Part shown: piece by piece, positions 447-64,000 of the stretch | How the letters are laid out: the number at the start of each line of letters is the position of its first letter | How positions within the stretch are numbered: the first letter of the stretch is position 1 | NCBI GenBank assembly: GCA_013399115.1 | Contig: VXAA01000606.1 | Location: 1,270,951-1,334,950 of the forward strand | From: Anseranas semipalmata | Lineage: Eukaryota > Chordata > Aves > Anseriformes > Anseranatidae | Length of the DNA stretch: 64,000 bases | Direction: 5' to 3' | Notes under the pieces: model-generated | The model's database searches: none | Seen by the model: the letters and a program-made list of their open reading frames with translations, nothing else | Told to the model about the DNA's origin: nothing | Program-made: the position numbers and the translations under genes

Positions 447-575
447 CTTGACTTCACCTTCTTCTGACTGGTTGTCTGAGTGCCGAGGAGAAGAGAGTTC
501 GTTCCCATGCTCATCTTTGACTTTGGGAGCCTTGTTCTCTTTCTTTACTCGTGGTTTCCTCTTCTTTAGCTTGCC
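447..575 (-). CDS. CHD2: CHD2 coding exon 31 (residues 1341-1383, last exon in window)
   Basis: 129 nt, phase 0 at both ends. [20 protein letters not shown] (nuclear-localisation-like), then [20 protein letters not shown]. Acceptor CTTTTCTCCAG, donor AAG|GTGAGT. The next exons, including the conserved C-terminal helical domain and the His/Arg-rich tail, are not in the window. Confidence 0.95.
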
Positions 576-3500
576 CTGGAGAAAAGACAGAACAAGTCAG
601 AGCAAGCAAATAACTACAGCTGCTTCCTGGAGGCATACCCCATTTCCCGACCATCTCCCCAACAGCTGCAGGTCCTGCAGGGTGCCAGGAAGCCTGAAGA
701 GCCACAGGAAAGCCTGGTGGGCCACATATGAAATTAGATAATCAAATTTCAGCCAGAAAGAGGAATTGCCTGTGAGATCTGAGAGGTCAAGTGAATATCT
801 CAAACATTTACAGACTGGTGCATACAGAACAATGACAATGGGGTGACAGGGCTGAAAGCTACCCGATTCCCACTGTCACCAGGTATTTCGTGGATATTTA
901 ACAGCATGCCATGGTGCAACTTCCAGGTGGAAGAAAAGGAAGGCAAAATATATTTTAAAAAAATTATTCTAAGCCAATTTATGTCCTGTCTGAATAGCTT
1001 GAAGTGCCCCTTGCTGGGAATCAAGGGAGTTTTCAGCACCCAGCCTTGTCTATTCCATCATTTTTCAAGAAACTTTCATAAATTGCAGCAGTATCCACTT
1101 CTCGGAAATAGCTTAATAAAAAGGGCATGATGTCCCCTGCTTTCCCTCAGTGGTTTGGACACTCAACTTGCACAGTCTTTTTCTAAGTGACAAAGTTGAA
1201 AATTTAGATTTAGATCAGAGTGTCATGCTGGAGACCTTCAGCAAGTGTAATAACTAATTACTTGTCCCCCACCAGTTATCATTTCAGTATCACAATGCAA
1301 TCACACAACAGACAAGTCATTATTCTTTCATGTAGAAGACAGCGACCTGGCAGCACAGGCTGTCTTGCCTCCCACCACCAACCAACCACTCATCCTGAAA
1401 ACCCCAGAATCAAGCAGCCACATCTCACCTCTTCCCCATCTTTCATGTTTTCTTTCTTGTCCAGATCCTTCTTCAGCAATTTCAGTAGATAATCAACTCG
1501 GGTCTGGAGCTGTTTTCCCTGAGGTTTCTTATCTGTCTCAACAGGTAGGATCTTTGATAAAGAAGAAAAAAAAAGAATACACCCACATGCACCTATCAAA
1601 CCTTGGCAGAAGAGATACACACTATAAGCAGTCCTTCCAGGTCCAGCAAATGGTTGGAGATGCTGCACCTCCTGGGGTAAACAAGAAGGTTCGAGCATTT
1701 CTTCCAACCTGAGGAGCTCCCACACAGACTCTCGCTGTCTAGCCATAAGCAAAGCTCCAAGCAAGAATCCCTCTCTCCTTGGCCTTTTGCAGGTAAAAGG
1801 ACCCCAAAGCAGCTCTCTAAATTCTCTGCAATCTTTCTTAAAAGTGTGCAAAAATAAAAATAAAAAGCAAAATATATTTGCGACCTTGCATTGCAATATT
1901 GAGTCCATTCTTCTTGAGGCACCAGATCTGCTTGCGACAGCCTTGTCACAGCAGCTTTGTCCTCTCTGGTAGCTTGAGACATTGGTATAGCAAGGATAGA
2001 GATGCAGAATTTTTATTGGAAAACAAGGCTGCAGGGTACTACTTTGTGGAGGAAGCGTATCAGCTCACCAGCAAAGGTTACTGTCATATTTCATTGGAAC
2101 TTGGGTGGCGTATCTCAGGCAATCATAAAATTGGCTTTCTGAACTTCACGTAGGAGGGCTCTCAACCACAGTCTGATCTTTGCTAAAAACACTAGAGGGG
2201 ATGTCATGGGAATGCAGCTTATTGGCAGCCATGCTGATGTACAGTCCCAATGTTCCTCAGCCCGGTGCTACAGTCCACCCTCCTTCCACTGTGCTGACAC
2301 AACAGATGACGGCTTATTTTTAACCTGGATCGTTTCAACATGGCCCCCATAAACAGCTCTTATGGGAATGACTGAGGAACAGAGGAACTAAATGGAGGCC
2401 TTCCAGCTGGCTTTGCTGCCATAGCCAGTCATGTAACTATACCCTCAAAGCTAACACAGACCAGTCTTGACATAAGCAGTGTCAAATCTGTGAAAAATTA
2501 TTTCCACACAGAATTCAAACTCAGCTTCTTGTGAGATGCTCAAGGAAATATCAAGTCACGATTATGCAATGCACCCTCTATACTGTGCGTGTAACCACTT
2601 ATGTCAGCATTACTGTTTTCTTCCTGCATCATTTCAGTGTGGTACATATGGTACTGTTCAGAGAAAATTTAATGCCAATCAAATAAGACAACTCTGCTTT
2701 CCATCAAGCATGCGGCGTTCCACAGAGGTCAGTGTTTTCCTCACTATTATTTATTATTATTTTTGGAGTGGTTACAAACATAAACATCTGTTTCTGGAGT
2801 AAATCAAACATGTTCTCTATGAAGACTGCAATGGACCCAATGCAAGCAACATGCAAAACAACCTACCTTATCAGATAACTTCAATTCCGGATCTGTTTTA
2901 ATTAGTTCCCAGTTTCCATAACCATGCTCGTAAATTCCCACTAACAAGCGAGAATCCTCCTCCACTCCCCAGTCTACATCAAAATGGGCAGCTTTGACAC
3001 GGCACGTCAGGCGGTACCTGAAGGCATTTCAAACATGAGCTACTTTTAATGCTGCGGGGGGTAAAGCAAATCCACATATCTAGGCTAGTCTCTTTCTACT
3101 ACAAAATCCAAATTCCCTGAGCCTCTTTCTGCATTGCCTGCTTAACCATTCAAACTCACTTCTTCCTTTCCTCTGGGTCTGCGGGGATGGATTTATGCAG
3201 CATTTCAAACTCTTCTTCATGCTGGATGATGGATTTCACGTTGACTTGGACACCAGAGATCTTGATAGTAGGACCTCTTCTTTTCCCAGGTCCTTTCCCT
3301 GCTCAATAATAAAACACAGCAACTAAGAGAACTCTTACAGAAAGAATATTAATGTAAAAAAAAATGTCTAGACACAGGGATCAATACCTTGCTCACGATT
3401 AAACATACAGCCATCTGCTAACGTAGGCCTCCAAAATAAGTCATCTTTCACTAATTCACTTAGATCTGCAACCCAAACATCTCCCACTATCATCATGATC

Positions 3501-63708: not shown

Positions 63709-63714
63709 ACATAC

Positions 63715-64000
63715 CCCCATTCGTGCAGCAACGGGCAACAAACGCTCTTTAAACAGATACGGGCTGCGGGGCTAAACATTTAACTGATGATGTAGCACAG
63801 CCTTCAGCCCCCCCACCCCCTTTCCACTGCTGCATTGGAGTTAGGAGCTGGTTTGCAGCTGCACTGGAGGGGAACAGGTCTGCAGCCCCCCCCGCCGCAT
63901 CGGGGCTCCCGTCCGCAGCTGCCCCCATCTTCGCGCCGCACCGGGGGCCGGGCTGAGCGGAGCCCCCTCGGTGCTGCATGCGCGGGGGGGAGGGGGAGCG
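63715..64000 (-). ncRNA. CHASERR: CHASERR-like promoter and first exon (CpG island, truncated by window edge)
   Basis: CpG-dense at about 63.86-64.0 kb, with a YY1-like GAAGATGGGGGC on the minus strand (near 63924). The best donor is GGG|GTATGT (63709-63714), and GCGG|GTGAGA near 63585-63590 is an alternative. The start site cannot be fixed and may lie beyond base 64000. A 76-codon minus-strand ORF (63749-63979) lies entirely in this GC-rich exon and has no recognised domain. Confidence 0.6.

Follow-up and report, generated by a model that had tools for sequence, protein, structure and literature searches.

Does the stretch of DNA analysed here (the window, 64,000 nucleotides) hold a bird orthologue of the tandem pair formed by the long non-coding RNA CHASERR and the gene CHD2, acting as proposed in mouse and human cells? 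We hold this to be highly probable. The identification as CHASERR-CHD2 in a bird, made earlier by the first-pass annotation for a "probable bird", is supported by the open CHD2 frame, two matches to human oligonucleotides, a conserved element in the last CHASERR exon, the spacing of the two genes, beta-keratins and genome size. In the genome, 31 places match the keratin family PF02422, which is matched in none of 14 control genomes; together with an assembly of about 1.10 Gb this fits a bird, other sauropsids usually having larger genomes. Systems of this kind have been described before, and this locus is a further copy. The extracts available of Rom 2019 (PMC6841665) and Ross 2021 (PMC7798263) describe order, spacing, exon structure and motifs as conserved in vertebrates; the earlier suggestion that the circuit is old is right, but had been published in these two papers.

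The mechanism under consideration is a negative feedback on CHD2 dosage. A spliced, polyadenylated non-coding RNA, on the same strand as CHD2, would begin where the contig ends or further out, some 15.5 kb or more before the CHD2 start, and would stop about 2.3 kb short of CHD2. By analogy with mouse and human cells, making CHASERR would most likely lower CHD2 in cis; plentiful CHD2 protein would favour CHASERR output, and the act of transcribing and terminating CHASERR near the CHD2 promoter would hold CHD2 down. Transcription of the RNA and repression of CHD2 in the present species are predicted by the same analogy. According to the accessible sections of PMC6841665, deletion of the Chaserr promoter, deletion of the gene body or antisense knockdown raises Chd2 in mouse cells, supplied cDNA does not lower Chd2 again, and CHASERR knockdown raises CHD2 in two human cell lines. 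Chaserr acts in cis there; the authors propose a negative feedback involving CHD2 protein and call the exact mechanism unknown. Antisense oligonucleotides placed over last-exon elements also raise Chd2 in mouse N2a cells (PMC7798263, extracts). The layout of the present locus is the one such a mechanism would require.

A different account of the locus would have CHASERR limit CHD2 chiefly because the two promoters compete for shared enhancers, rather than through the RNA or its transcription. In mouse, upstream enhancers do contact the Chd2 promoter more once the Chaserr promoter is deleted, but a similar rise of Chd2 follows when the gene body is deleted and the promoter left in place, or after antisense knockdown (PMC6841665, extracts), which makes this account rather improbable. 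Repression in cis by CHASERR production thus remains our preferred reading. SRG1-SER3 of yeast resembles it in working only: same-strand upstream non-coding transcription lowers the next gene, there is no homology, and SRG1 overlaps the SER3 promoter, with starts about 500 bases apart versus many kilobases here (extracts of PMC6841665).

CHD2 itself was located by tblastn with a provisional human CHD2 sequence as query, a few weak out-of-order matches being set aside. Running from 47523 to 447, the minus-strand blocks covered human residues 1-1379 in consecutive order. Once joined at splice sites, they gave 31 coding segments with 1,383 codons and no stop on the minus strand of the window, and 1,242 of the 1,350 aligned residues of the model were identical to this provisional human protein. 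The start-codon exon (47670-47462, minus strand) carries the ATG at 47523 (MMRNKDKSQ...); its acceptor at 47671 is weak, falling short of the pyrimidine filter, and was placed by eye. The other 30 segments, defined by tblastn, splice joining and Pfam, occupy 34028-447 on the minus strand, the first at 34028-33809 and the last at 575-447. The earlier assignment of coding exons to CHD2 is thus confirmed for the minus strand between 47523 and 447, with the frame open throughout.

On the predicted product, Pfam recognized the chromodomains, SNF2 ATPase, helicase C, the CHD1/2 SANT-helical linker and HTH. Among solved chains the nearest is that of CHD1, which differs and does not have 14 residues lying between the chromodomains; judged by its product, the gene is CHD2 and not CHD1. 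Outside the window, past its base 1, the same contig holds exons for human residues 1426-1828, which close with NIRKT and the stop codon; for residues 1380-1425 the provisional human query found no match there. The same contig carries, tail to tail with CHD2 and on the opposite strand, an RGM-family gene (contig positions 1253536-1256786); we take RGMA to occupy the matching place in human.

The CHD2 start was placed by a motif. AGATGGCGGC, present as a sole copy in the window when both strands were searched, lies at 48418-48409 on the minus strand, and we assume that it is a YY1-type start-site motif and marks the CHD2 start, which would probably lie near 48.42 kb. A probable non-coding first exon would then span 48420-47931 on the minus strand, its start following from the motif and its end lying at the donor CAG/GTAGGT, whose score at 47931 (10.5) equals that of the best CHD2 donors. 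The presumed start region near 48.4 kb did not reach CpG-island thresholds, which counts against reading the motif as a start site there. Measured from the CHASERR polyadenylation signal at 50744 to the motif at 48418, the gap between the CHASERR 3' end and the inferred CHD2 start is about 2.3 kb; the 2.3-kb gap described previously therefore holds as far as this start does. In mouse, the gap is about 2.2 kb and the starts are about 17 kb apart, versus about 2.3 kb and probably about 15.5 kb here (PMC6841665, extracts).

The candidate CHASERR exons lie upstream of CHD2 on the same (minus) strand, as for Chaserr/CHASERR (mouse 1810026B05Rik, human LINC01578) and Chd2 in PMC6841665, which share the order, the strand, the non-coding character and the small internal exons. 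We trained a splice model on the window's own 30 CHD2 introns and used it to score the 878 GT and 840 AG sites of the minus strand between 64000 and 50700, where 15,249 internal exons of 25-300 bases are possible. Candidate exon 2 (61656-61585, 72 bases) ranked second among these, with acceptor and donor ranks of 2/840 and 11/878, in agreement with its earlier placement. For candidate exon 3, the donor at 60785 was the best of all 878 and two acceptors compete: an exon of 90 bases from 60874 ranked first of the 15,249, and one of 59 bases from 60843 ranked ninth. The donor given by the first-pass annotation is upheld, but the exon from 60874 ranks above the one from 60843 that it had chosen, and 60874 may be the true start. 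Candidate exon 4 (56743-56687, 57 bases) remains a candidate, but a weak one, with ordinary splice sites (acceptor 25/840, donor 28/878), and a variant from 56769 outscores it in the splice model. These ranks give good support to exons 2 and 3 but not to exon 4; the exact splicing of the predicted RNA may differ from this model.

The candidate last exon extends from 51122 to about 50721 on the minus strand, as marked by human oligonucleotide matches and motifs. A motif scan placed its polyadenylation signal AATAAA at 50744-50739 (minus strand), about 380 bases into the exon, and the 3' end was set about 20 bases past this signal. A second AATAAA lies at 50375 on the minus strand. The acceptor at 51122 ranked 50/840, which is unremarkable, and given this rank it is homology, not the splice score, that supports the exon; with the AATAAA at 50744 and the homology, the exon start proposed earlier is retained. 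Its length of about 400-500 bases is common to Chaserr and this locus. The longest ATG frame across exons 2-5 has 45 codons, exon 1 being outside the window, and an Rfam search of the window at E up to 1 gave no matches, which says little on a lncRNA. Against the five exons of published CHASERR (PMC6841665, extracts), the locus offers strong exons 2 and 3, a weak exon 4, a last exon recognized by homology and an exon 1 beyond the contig.

This arrangement could also be read as an alternative 5' leader of CHD2, whose upstream exons are spliced into CHD2 rather than forming a separate RNA. The shared strand and the short gap fit such a leader, as does the AATAAA at 50375, which makes the 3' end non-unique, and a RefSeq form of Chaserr has a last exon overlapping Chd2 (PMC6841665, extracts). 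The polyadenylation signal about 380 bases into the last exon speaks against it, as does the main mouse form, which is separate from Chd2 and stops about 2.2 kb short of it (same extracts), and we regard a leader as very improbable. We therefore treat the exons as those of a separate CHASERR transcript.

The 5' end of this transcript is the part of the pair that the window does not reach. Base 64000 of the window is the end of the contig, in an assembly of 1,103,835,469 bases and 4,080 contigs, and the break falls inside GC-rich DNA: at 63651-64000, GC rises to 0.65 and the CpG observed/expected ratio to 0.72 in 300-base windows, and the final 100 bases of the contig are 81% GC with 13 CpG. 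This edge (64000-63651, minus strand), truncated by the contig end, is the presumed region of the CHASERR promoter and exon 1. No convincing exon 1 donor was found between 64000 and 63300, and since the contig stops at 64000, exon 1 is not visible and would lie beyond it. The first-pass annotation had called the pair intact, its whole order visible and its CpG promoter present. Intactness fails for the CHASERR 5' end, which is off the contig, exon 1 is missing from that annotation's own exon list as well, and the "CpG promoter" is a CpG-rich stretch cut by the contig end. A motif related to AGATGGCGGC occurs at 63931, and if it were the CHASERR start, the two starts would be about 15.5 kb apart. 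Beyond CHASERR, the neighbouring gene on the far side is presumably FAM174B. Such breaks have precedent: 4 of the 16 CHASERR sequences curated in Ross 2021 are probably 5'-incomplete, with assembly gaps at the extremely GC-rich promoter and first exon (PMC7798263, extracts). As the contig breaks in the GC-rich CHASERR start, an annotation of the locus in this assembly will be without the 5' end.

Similarity to human CHASERR was assessed through oligonucleotides only, namely 30 primers, hairpin targets and antisense probes for LINC01578 printed in PMC7718957 (extracts), taken in sense orientation. The NR_037600 reverse primer matched 51119-51104, where the last exon begins, at a level reached by none of 300 shuffles, and probe 5 matched 51077-51060, the CAAGATGGCAG element, at a level reached by one of 300. 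Both places were the best for these oligonucleotides over 64000-48000, and over 13.3 kb the two matches were reached by 5/400 and 1/400 shuffles, respectively; the primer scores 24 in the last exon, and its highest score within CHD2 intron 1 is 22. The other 28 did not reach the 5% shuffle level in the last exon. As a control, 22 of the 30 oligonucleotides (eight promoter ones were dropped) were compared with eight region-strands, giving 176 pairs. Six pairs had z above 3, half of them on the sense strand of the lncRNA, but there the 22 averaged a z of 0.46, not above the best control (0.47). Since the mean is level with the control, the similarity consists of two adjacent places at the last-exon start and is not an overall one.

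One further match was considered as an extra conserved exon near 59.3 kb. The human shLINC-1 target matched 59278-59258 at 18 of 21 bases, a level reached in none of 400 shuffles. The candidate was dropped, its z of 4.3 being little more than the highest control value, 3.98, of the 176 pairs and the nearby splice sites being middling (acceptor score 4.1, donor rank 23/878). The match at 59258-59278 falls inside presumed intron 3.

The last exon also carries elements of the motif set derived with LncLOOM in Ross 2021: AAGATG plus purine, AAATGGA, the ARATGR core and AATAAA (PMC7798263, extracts). CAAGATGGCAG lies at 51077 and contains the AAGATG (at 51076). Counts were tested against 5,000 dinucleotide shuffles. 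The two copies of AAATGGA (51040 and 50929) were reached by 0.5% of shuffles and the five of ARATGR by 1.4%, whereas the single AAGATG (31%) and the five ATGG (14%) are not unusual. The last exon can thus be called motif-rich, as it had been, for the first two motifs, but it is ordinary for the others. Ross 2021 found AAGATG and AATAAA in the last exon of all 16 CHASERR sequences, and both are present here, a single AAGATG being common by chance so that only its presence counts; the mean there is 2.1 AAGATG per sequence, versus one in the present locus. DHX36 associates with Chaserr (PMC7798263, extracts), and by analogy it may bind ARATGR in this RNA.

Could the candidate exons be chance splice-like sequence, with no lncRNA gene and only CHD2 real? 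Other strong unpaired splice sites do occur in the region, most human oligonucleotides are unmatched, and the exons are known from sequence alone. On the other side stand exons 3 and 2, ranking first and second of 15,249, the two adjacent oligonucleotide matches in the last exon, and the CHASERR homologues found in every vertebrate that Rom 2019 examined (PMC6841665, extracts); a chance origin is hardly credible. Just as implausible is a role of CHASERR chiefly in trans, in which it would pair with nascent transcripts and so bring CHD2 protein to other genes (PMC7764144). In favour of this, predicted RNA pairs are enriched among knockdown-changed genes in human fibroblasts (extracts of that paper), but mouse genetics shows Chd2 repression solely in cis, with rescue when Chd2 is also perturbed (PMC6841665, extracts).

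A CHASERR gene upstream of CHD2 is thus the reading that we retain, differing from the published one in an exon 1 that lies beyond the contig, an uncertain exon 4, and a bird locus for which DNA is the only source. The available portions of PMC10951430, PMC12195842, PMC9114084 and PMC7798263 contain no description of CHASERR in a bird, which is a statement on these portions and not a claim of absence from print. CHASERR occurs only in the reference list in the available text of the chicken atlas, and the word chicken is absent from that of PMC6841665, where a figure legend names lizard and no bird.

The strongest CpG island of the window lies elsewhere, at 43801-44800, in the intron that follows the first coding exon of CHD2, with GC up to 0.71 and an observed/expected ratio up to 1.21. 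It is adjoined by a 62-base run of N (43773-43834), and more GC-rich, CpG-dense patches occur in CHD2 introns at 27001-30250 and 35251-36200. Tentatively, and as an unlikely reading, the island could be a second strong CHD2 promoter, downstream of the CHASERR-controlled start. Loss of Chaserr kills newborn mice, and for haploinsufficient patients CHASERR is discussed as a means of increasing CHD2 (PMC6841665, extracts). To this lncRNA circuit the locus adds one probable bird copy, and if the second promoter were real, CHASERR feedback would not reach part of the CHD2 produced, which would probably be N-terminally shortened.
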